From positions 248,001-312,000 of the forward strand of contig JAGYKX010000005.1 of assembly GCA_018401115.1 (NCBI GenBank): a stretch of DNA of 64,000 bases, in the 5' to 3' direction. Positions within the stretch are counted from its first letter, which is position 1. The number at the start of each line of letters is the position of its first letter. This DNA is from Flavobacteriaceae bacterium (GTDB lineage Bacteria > Bacteroidota > Bacteroidia > Flavobacteriales > Flavobacteriaceae). This document shows positions 28,311 to 35,873 of this stretch, in pieces. The notes below the pieces were generated by a model. That model did no database searches. It had not been told where the DNA came from and saw nothing but the letters and a program-made list of their open reading frames with translations. Both the position numbers and the translations under genes were made by a program.

Positions 28311-29618
28311 ATGGGTACCTTTAAAATAGAGGGAGGACATAAACTCCAAGGAAGTATTCGCCCACAGGGTGCAAAAAACGAGGCTTTACAAATTTTATGT
28401 TCCGTACTACTCACCGAAGAGGAAGTGACTATTCACAATATCCCTGATATTATTGATGTGAACAAACTCATTTCTTTGTTAGAAGACCTTGGGGTTAAAA
28501 TTCAAAAGAAAGCTAAGGGCAGTTATACTTTTAAAGCAGACGACGTTAATTTAGATTACCTCCAAACACCACAATATAAAGAAGACGGAAAAGGTTTAAG
28601 AGGTTCTATTATGTTAGTAGGGCCATTGTTAGCGCGTTTTGGAAAAGGATATATTCCAAAACCAGGAGGAGATAAAATTGGCCGCAGAAGGTTAGATACC
28701 CATTTTGAAGGCTTTATTAAGTTGGGTGCTCAATTTAGATACAACCAAGAAGAGCATTTCTACGGTGTAGAAGCGTCTAAATTAAAGGGGGCTTATATGC
28801 TTTTAGATGAGGCCTCTGTTACAGGTACCGCTAACATATTAATGGCTGCTGTTATGGCAGAGGGAGTCACGACCATTTACAACGCAGCTTGTGAACCCTA
28901 CTTGCAACAATTATGCACCCTTTTAAATAAGATGGGGGCTAAAATTAGTGGTATTGGATCTAATTTATTAACTGTAGAAGGGGTAGAAACGCTTCACGGG
29001 GCTTCCCACACTATGCTTCCAGATATGATTGAAATTGGGAGCTGGGCTGGAATGGCTGCCATAACACAAAGTGAGCTCACCATTAAAGACGTAAATTGGA
29101 ATATGCTGGGACAAATCCCTGCAGTATTTAGAAAACTAGGCATTACTATTGAGCAAAAAGGAGACGACATCTATATTCCAGCTCACACAGATGGTTATGC
29201 GGTTCAAAATTATATAGATGGTTCTATTCTAACCATTTCAGATGCACCTTGGCCAGGCATGACTCCTGACTTGTTGAGTATTCTTTTGGTCACTGCCACA
29301 CAGGCAAGGGGAGAAGTACTTATACACCAAAAAATGTTTGAGAGCAGGCTGTTTTTTGTAGACAAACTCATAGACATGGGCGCTAAGATCATTCTATGTG
29401 ATCCGCATAGAGCTACAGTTATGGGACATGATTTTAAATCATTGCTCAAAGCAACCACTATGGTTTCTCCAGATATTAGAGCAGGAGTATCGCTTTTAAT
29501 TGCAGCGCTTTCCGCCAATGGGACATCTACTATTCACAATATTGAGCAAATAGATAGGGGTTATGAGAATATAGATGAGCGACTTAGAAGTATAGGCGCA
29601 CATATTGTTAGGTTATAG
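28311..29618 (+). CDS. murA: UDP-N-acetylglucosamine 1-carboxyvinyltransferase
   Basis: 435 residues of the EPT fold: the N-terminal LQGSIRPQGAKNEALQIL holds the conserved Lys-Asn, and the RGSIMLVGPLLARFG block follows. It makes the first committed step of peptidoglycan synthesis (UDP-GlcNAc plus PEP). In the catalytic loop, PGGDKIGRRRLD has Asp121 where most bacteria have the Cys attacked by fosfomycin (Cys115 in E. coli). Asp at this place is known from Mycobacterium and Chlamydia and makes the enzyme insensitive. The 3' end overlaps the convergent gene by 11 bases. Confidence 0.96.
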   Translation: MGTFKIEGGHKLQGSIRPQGAKNEALQILCSVLLTEEEVTIHNIPDIIDVNKLISLLEDLGVKIQKKAKGSYTFKADDVNLDYLQTPQYKEDGKGLRGSIMLVGPLLARFGKGYIPKPGGDKIGRRRLDTHFEGFIKLGAQFRYNQEEHFYGVEASKLKGAYMLLDEASVTGTANILMAAVMAEGVTTIYNAACEPYLQQLCTLLNKMGAKISGIGSNLLTVEGVETLHGASHTMLPDMIEIGSWAGMAAITQSELTIKDVNWNMLGQIPAVFRKLGITIEQKGDDIYIPAHTDGYAVQNYIDGSILTISDAPWPGMTPDLLSILLVTATQARGEVLIHQKMFESRLFFVDKLIDMGAKIILCDPHRATVMGHDFKSLLKATTMVSPDIRAGVSLLIAALSANGTSTIHNIEQIDRGYENIDERLRSIGAHIVRL

Positions 29619-30285
29619 TTTTGTCGCTGTATACTAAACTATATACTATACAGGCTTGAGCCAGTCCATAGCTTAACATGACAAGGAAGTCTACCTTAGG
29701 AAAGTGATCTAAAAACATGGATAGGGCCAGCAAGCTGTCCGATGCCAAAAACAATCTAGCTCCCACAATACCAAAGATATAGGAAGCTTTATTCACGCTT
29801 CCTTTTCTGATTTGTGCCGTGTAAGCCATGGCAGAAATAGCGATAATATACACTAAGACTGGTATTTTCAAATCCCCAGCTTTGGGTAGTATTAGATACC
29901 CCAAAATAAAAGCGTAGTTAGCCAATAATATGAATTGGAAGAGGTGTTTTTTTCTCCCTTTTTGTGTTAAAAAAATTACTGTGTATCCAATATGTGCCAA
30001 TAAGAATGCACCTAGTCCTGCTATAAAAAATAGCCCACTGTACTCCTGAAACATTAAAAAGACATCTCCAGCCCAAGAGGCTATTATGGCGAAGACACCC
30101 AAGGGATATAATTTTTCAGATATATGAGCCTTTTTGGAGATAAAATAAGCCAATAAGCTTATCATGATTAGTGGCTTTGTGGCATATCTGTAACTGCTTA
30201 AGTCAAAATGACTCAAGCTTGCGTCTATAAGCAATAAACCCCCAAAACACATAGAGAATTGGAGGTCTTTTTTAGATAATATCAT
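29608..30285 (-). CDS. YhhN/TMEM86 family protein (lysoplasmalogenase type)
   Basis: 225 residues with about eight membrane helices. The YhhN signature is seen in KPLIMISLL, SWAGDVFLMF and a late LFLASDSLLAL, giving Asp residues in the membrane that are conserved in the family. Some members cleave the vinyl ether of lysoplasmalogens; bacterial substrates are mostly untested. It begins 7 bases after the M20 amidohydrolase on the same strand, so they share a transcript. Confidence 0.82.
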   Translation of the reverse strand: MILSKKDLQFSMCFGGLLLIDASLSHFDLSSYRYATKPLIMISLLAYFISKKAHISEKLYPLGVFAIIASWAGDVFLMFQEYSGLFFIAGLGAFLLAHIGYTVIFLTQKGRKKHLFQFILLANYAFILGYLILPKAGDLKIPVLVYIIAISAMAYTAQIRKGSVNKASYIFGIVGARLFLASDSLLALSMFLDHFPKVDFLVMLSYGLAQACIVYSLVYSDKTIT

Positions 30286-30292
30286 ATTTATA

Positions 30293-31717
30293 TTACTGAT
30301 TTATAGGTGCGGGACCATCAATCATAGGCTCATAAACTTCATCTCCTTTTCGCATTTTGTATTCAGCTTTTACCTTAGCGACTAGTTTTGGGTTGTTAAA
30401 TAAATCTACCATAGTCATTCCCATTGCTTTGGCAGCGTGAATCATTCCTTTGTGGCCAATACTCATTCCGCCACAGGCAACCACAGCCCAAGAATGCCAA
30501 GGGGTGTCTTTAGGCGCAACAGTAACCCCTAAATTAATATTAGGAACATTCCAACTTACGTCGCCAACGTCGGTAGATCCACCTCCAGAATTTTCTCTGG
30601 TTTCTTCTAAAGGTCTAATAGCGCTATCCATACCTACTTGTGGTTTACCGGTAGCTGCTTGTATCTTTTTACCAAATTCATTTTCTCCCTCAGTGTATGA
30701 TATGGGACCTAATAATTCTAAGTTTTGCTGCATTACAGCACCACCAGTTCTATTGACCAGTGTTTCGTAAATTCCTGAAATTAGGGATATTTTGTAATCT
30801 ACATTGGCTAAAATAGCAGCCCCTTCAGCCATGGCTTGAACCCTCTCGTAAACTGGTTTCATTCCAGATCTTTTAGAGTCTCTCACCCGTACCCATAACC
30901 TTGAATAGTCTGGTACTACATTTACAACTTGACCACCGTCTTGTATGTGGTAATGTATTCTTACAGTTGGTTTAATGTGTTCTCTGTAGTAATTAATTCC
31001 TGAAGTGTATAATTCCAATGCATCTGACGCGGAACGTCCATTCCATGGATCTGCAGAAGCATGTGCCGCTTGTCCATAGAATTCTACTTTAAAATCAATC
31101 AATGCTAAAGAGCTCTGTACATCTGCTTTGGTATCTGCAGAAGGGTGCCAGCTAATGTTCACGTCTACGTTGTCCCAAAGACCAGCTTGGACCATCCAGA
31201 TTTTTCCGAAAAATTTTTCTTCAGAGGGTGTTCCCAAAAACCTTACGGTACCTTTTATTTTTCCTGCCTCGATCAATTCCTTAACAGCTATAGCTGCTCC
31301 TAGACTTCCTGCACCAAATAAATTGTGGCCACATCCGTGACCTGCCGCACCTTGATTCAAGGCTTCTTTTTCAGGTTGTGCTTTTTGAGATATACCGGGT
31401 AATGCGTCAAATTCTCCCAATACACTAATTACCGGGCTTCCAGAACCATAAGTAGCTGAAAATGCAGTGGGTATTCCAGCGACGCCTCTAGTGACATTAA
31501 ATCCATTTTTTTCTGCATAAGATGCTAGGATTTCTGCAGATTGGTCTTCTTGAAAAGCTGTTTCTGCTAGTGCCCAAATAGAGTCACTCACGGCAATTAA
31601 TGCTTGTTCATGTTTTTCTACAGAGGCTATAATAGCCTTCTTATGAGAAGTCATTTTTTGCGCAAAAATTGCTTGTGTAGTTAGGGCTAAAAGGCCTAGG
31701 ATAATTTTTTTTCTCAT
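30293..31717 (-). CDS. M20D amidohydrolase, AbgB-like, exported
   Basis: 474 residues with a signal peptide (1-19, ending AIFA). M20D features: GEFDALPG, the metal-binding AAGHGCGHN (Cys and His), the base in GTPSEEKF, NISWHPSA (His), and a dimerisation domain with FYGQAAHASADPWNGRSA. AbgB relatives cut p-aminobenzoyl-glutamate; others act on N-acyl amino acids or indole-acetyl conjugates. The substrate here is uncertain, though the gene is clearly periplasmic, unlike E. coli AbgB. Confidence 0.88.
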   Translation of the reverse strand: MRKKIILGLLALTTQAIFAQKMTSHKKAIIASVEKHEQALIAVSDSIWALAETAFQEDQSAEILASYAEKNGFNVTRGVAGIPTAFSATYGSGSPVISVLGEFDALPGISQKAQPEKEALNQGAAGHGCGHNLFGAGSLGAAIAVKELIEAGKIKGTVRFLGTPSEEKFFGKIWMVQAGLWDNVDVNISWHPSADTKADVQSSLALIDFKVEFYGQAAHASADPWNGRSASDALELYTSGINYYREHIKPTVRIHYHIQDGGQVVNVVPDYSRLWVRVRDSKRSGMKPVYERVQAMAEGAAILANVDYKISLISGIYETLVNRTGGAVMQQNLELLGPISYTEGENEFGKKIQAATGKPQVGMDSAIRPLEETRENSGGGSTDVGDVSWNVPNINLGVTVAPKDTPWHSWAVVACGGMSIGHKGMIHAAKAMGMTMVDLFNNPKLVAKVKAEYKMRKGDEVYEPMIDGPAPINQ

Positions 31718-31782: not shown

Positions 31783-33258
31783 TTAGTTTGTTTTTTTACG
31801 GGGTTTTTTTGGGACTACATGTGTGCTTAAAATTCTTTTCCCTTCTAATTTGACTAGAGTTGTTTTTCTTAATCCCCACAACTGGTCTGCTGCATACTTT
31901 CTGCTCTTTTCGAGATCTATAATTGGTACTGGATAGTCGCTACCCAATGTAAAATTTAAAAAAGCCGCTTCTAATGGAGGCATTTTCCAAGGCTCGTGCA
32001 CGTAAGCTTCCGGTATTAAAGCCAATTCTGGCACCCATTTCTTAACAAAAATGCCCTTTGGGTCGTGGTCTAATCCATTTTTAACAGGGTTGTATATTCT
32101 AATAGTATTTATCCCTGTTTCACCCGCTTGCATTTGAAGTTGGGGAAAATGAATTCCTGGTTCAAAATCTAAAAAGTGTTGAGCTAAATGTGGTGAGCAG
32201 TCTTGCCAGGGTTGCCAGAGTAAATGGGTGAAGAAAGAAGCCAGCATGGCCCTGAGTCTAAAATTTACAAAACCCGTTTGAACCAAACATCTCATGGCAG
32301 CGTCTACCATAGGCACTCCTGTTTGCCCTTGTCGCCAAGCTAATTGATAGGTAGGGTTTACCGTTTTATTAAGCGATGCATAGCCTTTGTTTACTGCGTC
32401 AAACTCAATATTAGGCTCCATTTCAAATTTCTGAATAAAATGCGCCTGCCAGCTCAATCTAGATATAAAGCCATTGATATTTCGTTTATTGCTCACCTGT
32501 TTTTGATTTCTACTAACATATTGAAGCACTTGTTTGGTAGAGAGCATTCCCCAAGCCAGATAGGGAGAAATTCGGCCACTATGAAGTCTAGATTCCAATG
32601 GTTTAGAATAATACTTTTGGTACCCATTAATTCGTTTCGTGATAAAACTATTCAAGTATTTCCATCCATTTAAACTTCCCCCAATTTGAATACCTGATTT
32701 ATGATTAATGTTTAATTCCAAAGGGACCAGTTCTAGCCTGGCAATTAATTCATCTATCTCTTTTGAGCTATAATAGGTACCTGAAAGAAAGCTAGGGGTA
32801 TGAATAGGAGCTTTCATTTGACCCATCCAGTGCTCCCGCCATTTTTGACGGTTCTTTAGCGCCCTCCATAGACCATTTTGGGCAAATTCATACCAATGTA
32901 CCCTGTTATTATTACACCATTTTTTTACAGCTTTATCTCTTGTGTATGTAATATCCATTCCCACTTCCATATGAGAATATAGGGATGTAATAGGTTCTTG
33001 GGAATGAATTTTTTGAAGTATTTCTGGAATATAGTCGGAAAGGATTAAAATTTTGGTATCGTATTCCCTTAGCATTAATTGTATAGCATCTAATCCTTCC
33101 TGAATAAAATCTATATGTAATTTACTGTAATGTGGGTCTTGAGTCCAAAGTGATTCAAAAGAATAGAGTAGTAATACCTTTTCTCCACTAGCCAAAGCTT
33201 TAGTTAATGGTTCGTGATCATCTAGTCTTAAATCTCTTTTAAACCAAACTACAACCAT
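31783..33258 (-). CDS. Photolyase/cryptochrome-family protein with degenerate Trp triad
   Basis: 491 residues. An N-terminal Rossmann domain (VVVWFKRDLRLDDH) and a C-terminal FAD domain are present, including a SGRISPYLAWGMLS block and RIYNPVKN. By eye against E. coli PhrB the electron-transfer residues differ: Trp382 is Leu374, Trp306 is Lys298, while Trp359 is kept as Trp351. The N5-contact Asn378 is His370, Glu274 is Arg and Met345 is Ala. The protein is therefore unlikely to be a standard CPD photolyase; it may be a cryptochrome-like photosensor, a repair enzyme of other specificity, or use a different electron path. It starts 2 bases after the CPD photolyase gene. Confidence 0.85.
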   Translation of the reverse strand: MVVVWFKRDLRLDDHEPLTKALASGEKVLLLYSFESLWTQDPHYSKLHIDFIQEGLDAIQLMLREYDTKILILSDYIPEILQKIHSQEPITSLYSHMEVGMDITYTRDKAVKKWCNNNRVHWYEFAQNGLWRALKNRQKWREHWMGQMKAPIHTPSFLSGTYYSSKEIDELIARLELVPLELNINHKSGIQIGGSLNGWKYLNSFITKRINGYQKYYSKPLESRLHSGRISPYLAWGMLSTKQVLQYVSRNQKQVSNKRNINGFISRLSWQAHFIQKFEMEPNIEFDAVNKGYASLNKTVNPTYQLAWRQGQTGVPMVDAAMRCLVQTGFVNFRLRAMLASFFTHLLWQPWQDCSPHLAQHFLDFEPGIHFPQLQMQAGETGINTIRIYNPVKNGLDHDPKGIFVKKWVPELALIPEAYVHEPWKMPPLEAAFLNFTLGSDYPVPIIDLEKSRKYAADQLWGLRKTTLVKLEGKRILSTHVVPKKPRKKTN

Positions 33259-33260
33259 TT

Positions 33261-34577
33261 TTAAGCCAAAGCTTTTTTATAAGTTTCAAGACACCTTTCT
33301 CTGGCCATTTTATGGTCTACCACTGGACTAGGATAGGTGATTTCACCTAAATCTGACACCCATTTTTTAAGGTAAATATGCTGTTTGTCAAATTTGTCTA
33401 TCTGGGTAGTGGGGTTAAAAATTCTAAAATAAGGGGCAGCGTCTACTCCAGAACCAGCAGCCCATTGCCAATTTCCGACATTACTGGCCAATTCAAAATC
33501 CAATAATTTTTCAGCAAAATAAGCTTCACCCCACCTCCAATCAATCAATAGGTGTTTGCAAAGAAAACTAGCCACAAGCATGCGAACCCTGTTGTGCATA
33601 GTTCCAGTAGCATTGAGTTCTCTCATTCCAGCGTCTACTAAAGGATAGCCTGTTGTGCCATTTTTCCAGCGCTCAAATTCTGCTGTATTATTTCTCCATT
33701 CAATACGGTCATAGGCAGGTTTAAATGCCTTTGTAGGTGTGTGGGGAAAATGCCATAATATTTGCATAAAAAATTCCCTCCAAATGAGTTCACTCAAAAA
33801 TACTTGATTTTTTTGCGCTTTGGCTTTTTGTACAAGGGCCCTAACAGATACAGTTCCAAACCTAAGGTGAGGCCCTAATTTAGAAGTGCCGTTTTCTATA
33901 CTCGGGAAATTTCTTTTTGCTTCATACTCCTCAATGAGTTCTGTACTAACAGAATAATTTGGGACCTCAATTTCTGCCTCAGAATAGCCTAAGGCTTTCA
34001 TATCATGAAGGCTTGTATTTATTTTATAGAGGTTTTCAAGCGGCATCTCTAGTGCTTGAAATCCTTGGGGGTATTGTAGTTCAAAATTACTTAACCATCT
34101 ATTCTTGTAAGGCGTATAAACAAGATAAGGTTTGCCGTCTTCTTTAGTGACCTGATCTTTTTCAAAAATAACCTGGTCTTTAAAAGCGTGAAAATCGACT
34201 GATTTAGTGGCTAAATAAGCTTTAATCTCAAAGTCTCTTTGTATTGCATAAGGCTCATAGTCTTCATTGGTATAGACCCCACAAACTTTAAAATCGTGAG
34301 AGGGGTTTACTAAAGATTTAAAAACCTCTAATGGTTTGCTGTGGTAGGATTGCACACCAGATTGAAATAGTTTTTTAAAATGCTGGTTTATTTGTTGTAG
34401 CTGGTGAACAATAAATTGAAGCCTAGGGTCTTTATCCGGAAGCATTTCTAGTATGTCAGTATCGAAAATAAAGATAGGAAGCACTTTTTTACCACTTAAA
34501 AGTGCCTTAGATAATGCCGTATTGTCATTGTACCTCAAATCCCTTCTATACCAAAAAATGACAATTTCTTCCTTCAT
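33261..34577 (-). CDS. phrB: Class I CPD photolyase
   Basis: 438 residues. N-terminal antenna domain (VIFWYRRDLRYNDN) and FAD domain with all key residues by eye against E. coli: Trp294, Trp347 and Trp370 for the electron-transfer triad (306, 359, 382), Asn in SNVGNWQW, Glu263 and Trp266 in SELIWREF for dimer recognition, and the RIFNPTTQ block. It repairs cyclobutane pyrimidine dimers with blue light. It lies 42 bases after the SDR-like gene and 2 bases before the cryptochrome-like gene. Confidence 0.95.
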   Translation of the reverse strand: MKEEIVIFWYRRDLRYNDNTALSKALLSGKKVLPIFIFDTDILEMLPDKDPRLQFIVHQLQQINQHFKKLFQSGVQSYHSKPLEVFKSLVNPSHDFKVCGVYTNEDYEPYAIQRDFEIKAYLATKSVDFHAFKDQVIFEKDQVTKEDGKPYLVYTPYKNRWLSNFELQYPQGFQALEMPLENLYKINTSLHDMKALGYSEAEIEVPNYSVSTELIEEYEAKRNFPSIENGTSKLGPHLRFGTVSVRALVQKAKAQKNQVFLSELIWREFFMQILWHFPHTPTKAFKPAYDRIEWRNNTAEFERWKNGTTGYPLVDAGMRELNATGTMHNRVRMLVASFLCKHLLIDWRWGEAYFAEKLLDFELASNVGNWQWAAGSGVDAAPYFRIFNPTTQIDKFDKQHIYLKKWVSDLGEITYPSPVVDHKMARERCLETYKKALA

Positions 34578-34619: not shown

Positions 34620-35309
34620 CTAATGTACGTTTAAACTTCCCATACCACCGTCTAATCCAATGATTTGTCCACTCATCCAGCTACTTTTGTCTGATAGTAA
34701 AAATACAGTCATTTCAGCAATATCACTGGCGGTACCCACTCTTTTTAAGGGGTGCCTTGCATCCATTATTTCTTTTTTCTTATCGTTATTTAGTAAGCGT
34801 CCAGCCAATGGGGTATTGGTTAAGGATGGTGCAATACAATTCACCCTTAGTTTGGGTGCATTCTCTGCAGCAATAGACTTCACAAAGCCTTCAACAGCTC
34901 CTTTAGCAGCTGCTATACTGGCATGAAAGGGCATACCCATAGCCACTGCTACAGTACTGTAAAACACCATACTACTTCCTTCATTCATTTTTGGCATAAT
35001 GGCCTGAACAATCGGCAACATAGCAAAGAAATTTATTTCCATGTCTGCTCTAAAAGCTTCGTTAGAAAGCATTTTAAGCGGTTTTAAGTTTATTGAACCT
35101 GGACAGTACACAAATCCATCTATGGGTGTATTGATTTGGTCTATAGGAAAGGCGTCTGTTAGCACATCAAATACGCTGTGGTTTACATGAGTCAATGAAA
35201 ATTCTGGAGCAGTTCTTGAGAATAAATGTATTTGGTGGTCTTGAGACAATATTTTTACTGTTTCAAGTCCAATGCCATGAGAGCCTCCAATAATAATAAT
35301 ATTTTTCAT
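34620..35309 (-). CDS. SDR-superfamily protein lacking the catalytic Tyr
   Basis: 229 residues. The Rossmann start is typical (IIIGGSHGIG), as are the catalytic Ser region (FYSTVAV) and C-terminal LDGG. In the active-site helix, HASIAAAKGAVEGF keeps the Lys, but the position four before it, normally Tyr, is Ile. The usual NNAG is replaced by YCPG. Either it is a binding protein or it uses other chemistry. It is 2 bases after the SRPBCC gene and part of the photolyase operon. Confidence 0.85.
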   Translation of the reverse strand: MKNIIIIGGSHGIGLETVKILSQDHQIHLFSRTAPEFSLTHVNHSVFDVLTDAFPIDQINTPIDGFVYCPGSINLKPLKMLSNEAFRADMEINFFAMLPIVQAIMPKMNEGSSMVFYSTVAVAMGMPFHASIAAAKGAVEGFVKSIAAENAPKLRVNCIAPSLTNTPLAGRLLNNDKKKEIMDARHPLKRVGTASDIAEMTVFLLSDKSSWMSGQIIGLDGGMGSLNVH

Positions 35310-35311
35310 AA

Positions 35312-35806
35312 TTAAATCTTTTTTAAACTTAGGGTTGTTGGGGTAGGTAATTGACCAAATAATTCTTTAAGTGCTTTTTCTCTGTGTGAAAATATCTTTT
35401 TTAACTGAGGCTTCACCAAAATGGGATGCACTATTTGGCCTAAAATTCCAAAAGGAATTTTGTAATCAATAATGTCTTCCATTTCTACACCGCCCTCAAT
35501 TTCTTTAATAAAATGTTTGTGGTGCCATAAAGCATAGGGACCAAAACGTTGTTCGTCTACAAAGTACTTTCCGTTTTCTACATGTGTTATCTCAGTGACC
35601 CATTTGGTGGTAACGCCTGGAAAAGGGCTCACCGTATAATGAATGACTTGGCCTGGAAACATTTTTCTGTCTGCACCGGCTAGGATGTTAAAACCCATGG
35701 CTTCAGGCGTAATTCTTTGAAGATTTTTAGGGTCTGACAAGAATTCCCAAGCAGTCTGCATATCCGTTTTAATACATTGTTTTGCGTGTAATTGGTATAG
35801 TTGCAT
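35312..35806 (-). CDS. SRPBCC family protein, first gene of the photolyase operon
   Basis: 164 residues from the ATG at 35804-35806 (MQLYQLHAKQCIKT). An earlier in-frame ATG at 35839 would start inside the -7 box, so it is rejected. Helix-grip pattern: CIKTDMQTAWEFLSDPKNLQRITP at the start and a final long helix (KIFSHREKALKELF). The fold binds hydrophobic ligands; related proteins are found beside photolyases in other bacteria, with no known ligand. The leader would be only about 16 bases. Confidence 0.85.
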   Translation of the reverse strand: MQLYQLHAKQCIKTDMQTAWEFLSDPKNLQRITPEAMGFNILAGADRKMFPGQVIHYTVSPFPGVTTKWVTEITHVENGKYFVDEQRFGPYALWHHKHFIKEIEGGVEMEDIIDYKIPFGILGQIVHPILVKPQLKKIFSHREKALKELFGQLPTPTTLSLKKI

Positions 35807-35842: not shown

Positions 35843-35873
35843 TGTTTAACTTTACGATTGTTCGTGTTAAACA
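35843..35873. promoter_or_regulatory. Inverted repeat TGTTTAAC-N15-GTTAAACA, probable operator
   Basis: Perfect 8-base arms at 35843-35850 and 35866-35873. It covers the -33 region of the leftward operon and lies 29 bases upstream of the -7 box of the rightward DUF2911 gene. Two half-sites with centres 23 bases apart fit a dimeric regulator or a pair of alternative sigma factor -35 elements. No regulator gene lies nearby. Confidence 0.55.

Follow-up and report, generated by a model that had tools for sequence, protein, structure and literature searches.

A conserved and apparently unnamed CPF subfamily, with two triad tryptophans replaced, encoded beside a class I-type photolyase in a Flavobacteriaceae genome

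The locus and its predicted product

The window, by which we mean the whole stretch of 64,000 nucleotides analysed here (contig JAGYKX010000005.1 of a Flavobacteriaceae genome), carries a co-directional run of genes (Table 1) that is transcribed in the order SRPBCC-like gene, short-chain dehydrogenase (SDR), class I-type photolyase (P0002) and P0001, the protein under study. Only 2 bases separate the stop codon of P0002 from the ATG of P0001. The product of the first gene, which we take to be an SRPBCC protein, has a homologue (L043:2479-2946) for which a Pfam search gave no match. The genes that follow P0001 on its strand (29608-31717) encode an M20-type amidohydrolase-like protein and a YhhN-like membrane protein, both named by eye.

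Table 1. Features of the window (positions in the whole stretch) and photolyase-like fusion frames in Deinococcus plasmid loci (positions in each locus)
Feature	Position	Strand	Remarks
Inverted repeat TGTTTAAC-N15-GTTAAACA, candidate operator	35843..35873	none	36 bases before the ATG of the first gene
SRPBCC-like protein, first gene of the run	35312..35806	minus	ATG at 35806; ORF from TTG 35839
Short-chain dehydrogenase	34620..35309	minus	homologue L043:2921-3646 is adh_short_C2; conserved neighbour in the same co-directional run
P0002, class I-type photolyase	33261..34577	minus	W306/W359/W382, N378, E274, N341, M345 and W384 kept
P0001, CPF protein, 491 aa	31783..33258	minus	ORF with DNA_photolyase and FAD_binding_7 domains
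R267 codon	32458..32460	minus	at E. coli E274, lesion-pocket Glu; Arg in 127/127 relatives
K298 codon	32365..32367	minus	at W306, distal triad Trp; K 85, Q 22 of 127, rest others
F333 codon	32260..32262	minus	at E. coli N341; Phe in 127/127 relatives
W351 codon	32206..32208	minus	middle triad Trp W359, retained; Trp in 126/127 relatives
H370 codon	32149..32151	minus	at flavin-N5 position N378; H 124, N 2, D 1 of 127
L374 codon	32137..32139	minus	at W382, proximal triad Trp; L 81, I 30, F 9, V 3, W 3, C 1 of 127
Deinococcus photolyase-like + UDG frame, L144	3932-6253		single frame
Deinococcus photolyase-like + UDG frame, L155	2447-4762		single frame
Deinococcus photolyase-like + UDG frame, L156	2198-4810		single frame
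Deinococcus photolyase-like + UDG frame, L157	2219-4765		single frame
Deinococcus photolyase-like + UDG frame, L158	2339-4750		single frame
Deinococcus photolyase-like + UDG frame, L159	2270-4774		single frame
Deinococcus photolyase-like + UDG frame, L160	2111-4735		single frame

By its domains and its predicted fold, P0001 belongs to the cryptochrome/photolyase superfamily. Pfam finds PF03441 (209 bits) and PF00875 (63 bits), both far above the cut-off, and no domain beyond these two photolyase domains, with 31 residues lying C-terminal of the FAD-domain match. An AlphaFold2 model built on 42 aligned sequences has a pLDDT of 89.7 and a pTM of 0.88, and the best 50 rows of its structural comparison (VIA) are photolyases and cryptochromes matched over the full length (Z 39.2-33.7, rmsd 2.2-3.3), the Z score being 35.6 against E. 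coli PhrB (1dnp) and 37.0 against the Anacystis enzyme (1owl). Neither an FeS-BCP nor a class II chain occurs among the best 50 rows each of Foldseek and VIA, an absence that carries no weight. Two sequence searches of the PDB both put 1np7 first, with 6kii second in one and third in the other.

Replaced residues in a separate clade

We compared P0001 with its family in a MAFFT alignment of 136 family rows (9 of 145 ORFs having been dropped as identical to a kept row) and E. coli Phr from NC_000913.3, whose numbering and residue roles are used here as is usual in the literature. Removal of 3 rows that are the window protein leaves 133, and removal of a further 6 at 95% identity or more to a kept row leaves 127 relatives, mostly from Flavobacteriaceae and pairwise below 95% identity, the row of locus L147 being short. 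The four replacements that the sequence-only reading had made out by eye, W382 to L374, W306 to K298, N378 to H370 and E274 to R267, are all reproduced exactly. The same reading had held the Trp triad to be absent. The alignment places no tryptophan at the proximal or the distal site, but the middle one, W359, is present as W351, so that two of the three are gone. HMMER alignments of P0001 to 1np7 and 1u3c concur for positions 370 and 374. The distal site falls in a loop of variable length, where HMMER sets Ser295, not K298, opposite the tryptophan of 1np7; since P0001 has no tryptophan at all between W270 and W308, the distal loss does not depend on the alignment.

The rest of the FAD domain, which had looked intact, is so at its FAD contacts (Y222, S238, R344 and D372 kept, D374 replaced by Glu), but not in the lesion pocket. 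We take the CPD pocket to consist of E. coli E274, W277, N341, M345 and W384. P0002 has all five together with a complete triad, whereas P0001 keeps W277 alone (as W270) and has R267, F333, A337 and M376 at the others. The residue at E. coli R226 is replaced as well, by Y217 in P0001 and by Ile in 111 of the 127 relatives. A substrate-selecting pair, identified by alignment with M345 and W384, has been described as H/W in (6-4), M/W in CPD, Q/Y in DASH and V/Y in plant CRY proteins, and the A/M pair of this family matches none of the rows given there (PMC7560933).

These replacements are strongly conserved. R267, F333, Q373 and Y389 are invariant in the 127 relatives, M376 is found in 125, and position 337 is Ala in 119 and Ser in 8. 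At the FAD-contact positions, Y213, S231 and D364 occur in all 127, R336 in 126, and position 366 is Glu in 124 and Asp in 3. W270 and R334 (E. coli R342) are present in 127 and R387 (R397) in 126, the two arginines having roles in lesion and DNA binding. Moreover, among 17 members from other groups (16 non-Bacteroidota and Persicobacter), R267 and Y389 are kept in 17, F333 and Q373 in 16, W351 in 15 and H370 in 14, with Trp at position 374 in 3. Against two close relatives (L036 and L037), the dN/dS of P0001 is 0.138 and 0.091, and that of P0002 is 0.098 and 0.078. Because dN/dS lies near 0.1 and the replacement residues are invariant among the relatives, the changes in P0001, judged from these sequences, are not decay and are under purifying selection. 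A decaying or chimeric gene, or an error of alignment, would account for the loss of several class motifs at once, but dN/dS of 0.09-0.14, the invariant replacements, the confident whole-length model and a family present in 86 of 299 Flavobacteriaceae genomes make this extremely improbable. In-range stop codons were reported for matches in the Flavobacteriaceae genomes G050, G118, G122, G138, G066, G296, G268 and G046 and in G464 of the Bacteroidota set; they may be mere alignment beyond the C-terminus.

The FAD domains of 23 family members (L158 and L159 left out) form a single clade with UFBoot 100 in maximum-likelihood trees, separate from class I, class III, plant CRY and DASH; in a second tree, from which the aligned FeS-BCP rows were excluded, the Drosophila (6-4) sequences also fall outside the clade. 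Plant CRY clusters with class III and, as a control, the host Cry-DASH protein clusters with DASH. The earliest branches of the family are the Nostoc and two haloarchaeal members, which keep W374 and have Asp or Asn at position 370. Since these members keep it, the trees suggest that the canonical Trp at 374 was lost within the clade, the direction being read from their branching order. As the other members compared have lost both features, the family, if active, would be a natural experiment on the roles of the Trp triad and of the flavin-N5 residue.

P0001 falls far below the cut-off of all five NCBIfam class models that it matches: 137.5 of 506 bits for PRK10674 and 118.7 of 884.6 for TIGR03556 (both class I), 132.8 of 317 for Cry-DASH (TIGR02765), 138.4 of 603.85 for plant cryptochrome (TIGR02766) and 39.9 of 550 for the class II model phr2. 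The two class I cut-offs are strict and carry little weight by themselves, because the class I-type neighbour P0002 also falls short of them (309.3 and 322.6 bits); for DASH and plant CRY, the trees likewise place P0001 elsewhere. Class I enzymes (E. coli PhrB, Anacystis 1owl) share with P0001 the two-domain architecture, the fold, the FAD contacts and the W277 and W359 equivalents, but W382, W306, N378, E274, N341, M345 and W384 are all replaced in P0001, and the clades are separate. The His pair of (6-4) photolyases and animal cryptochromes, at the N341 and M345 sites, is H, H in the Drosophila (6-4) photolyase and F333, A337 in P0001. FeS-BCP, the PhrB-type (6-4) photolyases, also lack the classical triad, and their E-W-V-Q-L, set against H-F-P-Q-L in P0001, has Leu at W382 with Gln before it in both, a likeness that is uncertain at such divergence. 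Unlike P0001, which has PF00875 in its stead, they carry an N-terminal PF04244 domain, they have the PhrB Y391-W390 sites and His position that P0001 lacks in the alignment, and they coexist with the P0001 family in most carrier genomes. Cry-DASH, the ssDNA photolyase, has the same fold and supplies the best PDB sequence match (1np7), but P0001 has R, H and L in place of its E, N and W (positions 267, 370 and 374) and again falls in a separate clade. The host Cry-DASH protein (L171 3624-4907; C5:876 kb) has Lys at the distal triad site W306, where four other DASH rows differ.

Could P0001 still be a CPD or (6-4) photolyase of the ordinary kind that, in the cell, can do without the triad? FeS-BCP photolyases do repair without the classical triad (PMC4619345). 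Set against this, the CPD residues E274, N341, M345 and W384 have become R, F, A and M, both (6-4) His positions are F and A, and many carrier genomes already have a class I, DASH or FeS-BCP enzyme; we consider this reading unlikely.

Like P0001, the PhrSph98-type bifunctional CPD/(6-4) photolyase of Synechococcus sp. PCC 7335 lies in an operon with another photolyase, but it is described as sister to class II (PMC9649867), and identity with it was dropped in view of the phr2 score of P0001. Three further proteins were set aside by their descriptions: Synechococcus Phr1, likened by its authors to the V. cholerae MTHF-type cryptochrome (PMC9426592), Halobacterium Phr1, with 42% identity to Phr2 (PMC10052015), and Pseudomonas CryB of the LitR regulon (PMC9758184). 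In open-access full texts, with subscription papers outside the scope, we could identify no named class or function matching these proteins, an absence of little weight. They are apparently a conserved, widespread and unnamed CPF subfamily.

Genomic company, electron supply and function

In a set of 296 Bacteroidota genomes the family has matches in 40, and a species-genome collection holds at least 513 confirmed stretches, of which 80 were kept for locus reading. Two arrangements recur at these relative loci. Type A cassettes run SRPBCC-like, SDR, class I photolyase and P0001 family, and type B cassettes run DUF2256, Cry-DASH, FeS-BCP, P0001 family and TIGR03643, often followed by SDR, SRPBCC-like and class I photolyase. 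Another CPF gene lies within 5 kb in 65 of the 67 loci with full flanks (the other 13 of 80 being excluded), namely class I in 58, FeS-BCP in 35 and DASH in 32; the assigned cassette genes in the 67 all share the strand of the family gene. The host has a second cluster at C5:875.3-879.0 kb with flavin reductase, DUF2256, Cry-DASH and FeS-BCP genes, where the PF04244 gene (C5:877473) is distinct from P0001. With class I and P0001 in the window and Cry-DASH and FeS-BCP in this cluster, the host genome encodes four different CPF proteins. The flavin reductase of the second cluster is the sole PF01613 match of the host genome; such a gene is nearby in just 25 of the 80 relative loci, and in both Vibrio loci it lies directly downstream of the family gene.

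Co-occurrence is equally pronounced. In Flavobacteriaceae, FeS-BCP is present in 82 of 86 family carriers vs 78 of 213 others, and DUF2256 in 82 of 86 vs 75 of 213; in Bacteroidota, FeS-BCP is present in 39 of 40 carriers vs 61 of 256 others (all by Fisher tests that ignore shared ancestry). Of the 82 Flavobacteriaceae genomes with both genes, 78 have listed FeS-BCP coordinates, and in 57 of these FeS-BCP and the family gene are at most 4 kb apart, always on the same strand. Because the two co-occur across both sets of genomes, the data say that the P0001 family is a companion of the (6-4) photolyase and not its substitute. DUF2256 (PF10013) itself is found in 152 of 160 Flavobacteriaceae genomes with FeS-BCP vs 5 of 139 others, and from this near one-to-one presence it is probably a functional partner of FeS-BCP.

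The family is also found on plasmids, in Vibrio, Salinivibrio, Pseudoalteromonas, Tritonibacter, Novosphingobium, Deinococcus, Duffyella, Marinobacter, Persicobacter, haloarchaea and Nostoc (123 records, ordinary photolyases among them, with 19 loci read). In 17 of the 18 non-Bacteroidota plasmid loci, within flanks of 2.5-4 kb, no second CPF gene was found; FeS-BCP is near in one (Novosphingobium, with DUF2256 beside it) and DUF2256 in three. On the Persicobacter plasmid, the family gene is closely preceded by a 404-aa frame (L150 2779-3990) that weakly matches class I photolyase (50 bits) and could be a further divergent CPF protein.

In all seven Deinococcus plasmid loci, PF00875, PF03441 and PF03167 lie in one ORF (Table 1). 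The uracil-DNA glycosylase (UDG) part contains the GQDPYH and HPSP motifs, which mark active family-1 UDG enzymes. The records annotate a single CDS over both parts in 6 of the 7, named merely 'uracil-DNA glycosylase', and the annotated D. gobiensis ung begins inside the frame. The Ung fusion was seen in this genus only, and that of Deinococcus sp. QL22 is neighboured by dinB and by a gene of the spore photoproduct lyase family. The main text of the D. gobiensis genome paper does not contain the word 'uracil' and treats other photolyase genes (PMC3314630). In other groups, the record names of the family are similarly generic, for example 'deoxyribodipyrimidine photo-lyase' or 'FAD-binding domain-containing protein'.

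This company bears on what the protein does. The term cryptochrome-like, which had been applied to P0001, is unsupported in the sense of a photosensor, since gene context and Ung fusions point to DNA repair. A photosensory bacterial cryptochrome would set its flavin state through the N5 His and through W351 or other aromatics, and would regulate a photorepair regulon without performing repair. The replaced lesion-pocket residues are compatible with this, as is the N5 position, which differs in plant CRY also (Asp), and loss of photoreduction tryptophans can accompany altered photochemistry. In addition, 'bacterial cryptochrome and DNA photolyase' genes of Dokdonia MED134 are described as light-regulated, the source leaving unstated which cryptochrome is meant (PMC9040609). 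On the other side, P0001 has just its two photolyase domains and a short C-terminal remainder, in Deinococcus the family domain is fused to a DNA glycosylase, and the gene is coupled in an operon to a photolyase across a 2-base gap; a photosensor thus seems unlikely to us.

We think it somewhat more doubtful still that P0001 is a light-independent accessory which keeps the fold and the DNA contacts, transfers no electrons and passes lesions on to photolyases or excision repair. Loss of two triad tryptophans and of four of the five CPD-contact residues would fit such a protein, as would the tight association with FeS-BCP in Bacteroidota. However, near-invariant FAD-contact positions are unexpected if flavin chemistry is dispensable, and the flanks examined around the Ung fusions contain no other photolyase gene.

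How would the flavin be reduced? With the W382 and W306 equivalents gone, the classical photoreduction chain is broken, and we infer that FAD photoreduction in P0001 would need another electron path, as the sequence-only reading had proposed. In PhrB of the FeS-BCP group the chain is Y391-W390-W342 (PMC5887102, PMC4619345). By alignment, in which the WY pair of the Bizionia FeS-BCP was equated by eye with PhrB W390-Y391, P0001 has L358/H357 at the Y391/W390 sites, so the first two sites are absent; position 358 is Leu in 124 of the 127 relatives, and position 357 is His in 87, Phe in 29 and Tyr in 8. The Trp pair of class II type, which we take to map to positions 339 and 346, is likewise absent from P0001 in the alignment. 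Photoreduction persists in PhrB when site A is Phe (PMC5887102, PMC4619345), and for this reason tunnelling from W351 through another aromatic is conceivable, with position 371 (F, Y or W; aromatic in 126 of 127) and the invariant Y389 as candidate relays. More likely than tunnelling, on the sequences at hand, would be dark reduction of the FAD by a cellular flavin reductase, an idea made concrete, though not proven, by the cassette-borne PF01613 gene with its 25 of 80 loci and single host copy.

The suggestion that P0001 has a function separate from that of the adjacent photolyase is well supported by its own clade (UFBoot 100), by an invariant alternative pocket and by genomic coexistence with class I, Cry-DASH and FeS-BCP. 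What sequences and a model establish is a predicted fold, a pocket that is both altered and conserved, a clade of its own, genes that occur and lie together with those of three other photolyase classes, and fusions to Ung. With about even confidence we read P0001 as the fourth member of a photorepair set, an FAD-dependent and probably light-driven enzyme for DNA photodamage; it looks like a separate tool for sunlight damage kept beside the ordinary photolyases. If active, the family would add a fourth light-driven repair activity in sunlit Bacteroidota, Vibrio and Deinococcus.

As such an enzyme, P0001 would bind folded FAD, as its relatives do, and use it as FADH-. As the proximal and distal tryptophans are gone, the reduction would come mainly from cellular reductants and not from intraprotein photoreduction, the flavin reductase of the sister cassette being a candidate. 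UV-damaged DNA is the probable substrate. With Arg/Phe/Ala/Met in its pocket and His at N5, P0001 may act on a damaged base that is neither the standard CPD nor the (6-4) product, or on one of these lesions in a different state; deaminated dimers that contain uracil would be an example and would account for the Ung fusion. As all the CPD- and (6-4)-specific pocket residues but W277 are changed and R226 is not kept, loss of repair is as possible as changed repair. It is tempting to speculate further that Arg for Glu, His at N5 and the missing triad amount to a new chemistry that repairs a lesion other than CPD or (6-4), for example Dewar or deaminated dimers, coupled in Deinococcus to uracil removal, but we regard this as an unlikely extension.

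An inverted repeat near the cassettes

The inverted repeat ahead of the run (Table 1), in its exact form, is unique in the host genome. The four next-best host sites have 2 mismatches, and one of them (C5:875326-875356) shares bases with the GTG start codon of the flavin reductase gene in the second cluster. At up to 3 mismatches the repeat is not above chance in the window (1 observed, 0.90 expected), and the whole host genome has 33 sites vs 26 for a reversed control, so its weight comes from exactness and conservation only. The N14 form was searched in the host genome at zero mismatches only. The LitR/PplR consensus T(G/A)TACA-N12-TGTA(C/T)A does not match the repeat. A TetR_C_23 gene follows the repeat in L106; its sole host copy, at C5:803111, has no N15 repeat nearby at up to 3 mismatches, and neither was taken as the regulator.

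With N14 or N15 and up to 2 mismatches, the element is found in 55 of the 80 relative loci. In type A cassettes it mostly lies 11-37 bases ahead of the first ATG; in many of type B it separates the family gene from the gene that follows, and in L058 it immediately precedes the family gene. Across 92 loci, the N14 element has 54 matches vs 4 in shuffled sequence. Finally, the exact TGTTTAAC-N14-GTTAAACA form is present in 101 of 299 Flavobacteriaceae genomes vs 2 of 299 for the reversed control (a hand count), which argues that the element is real and is not confined to photorepair genes.
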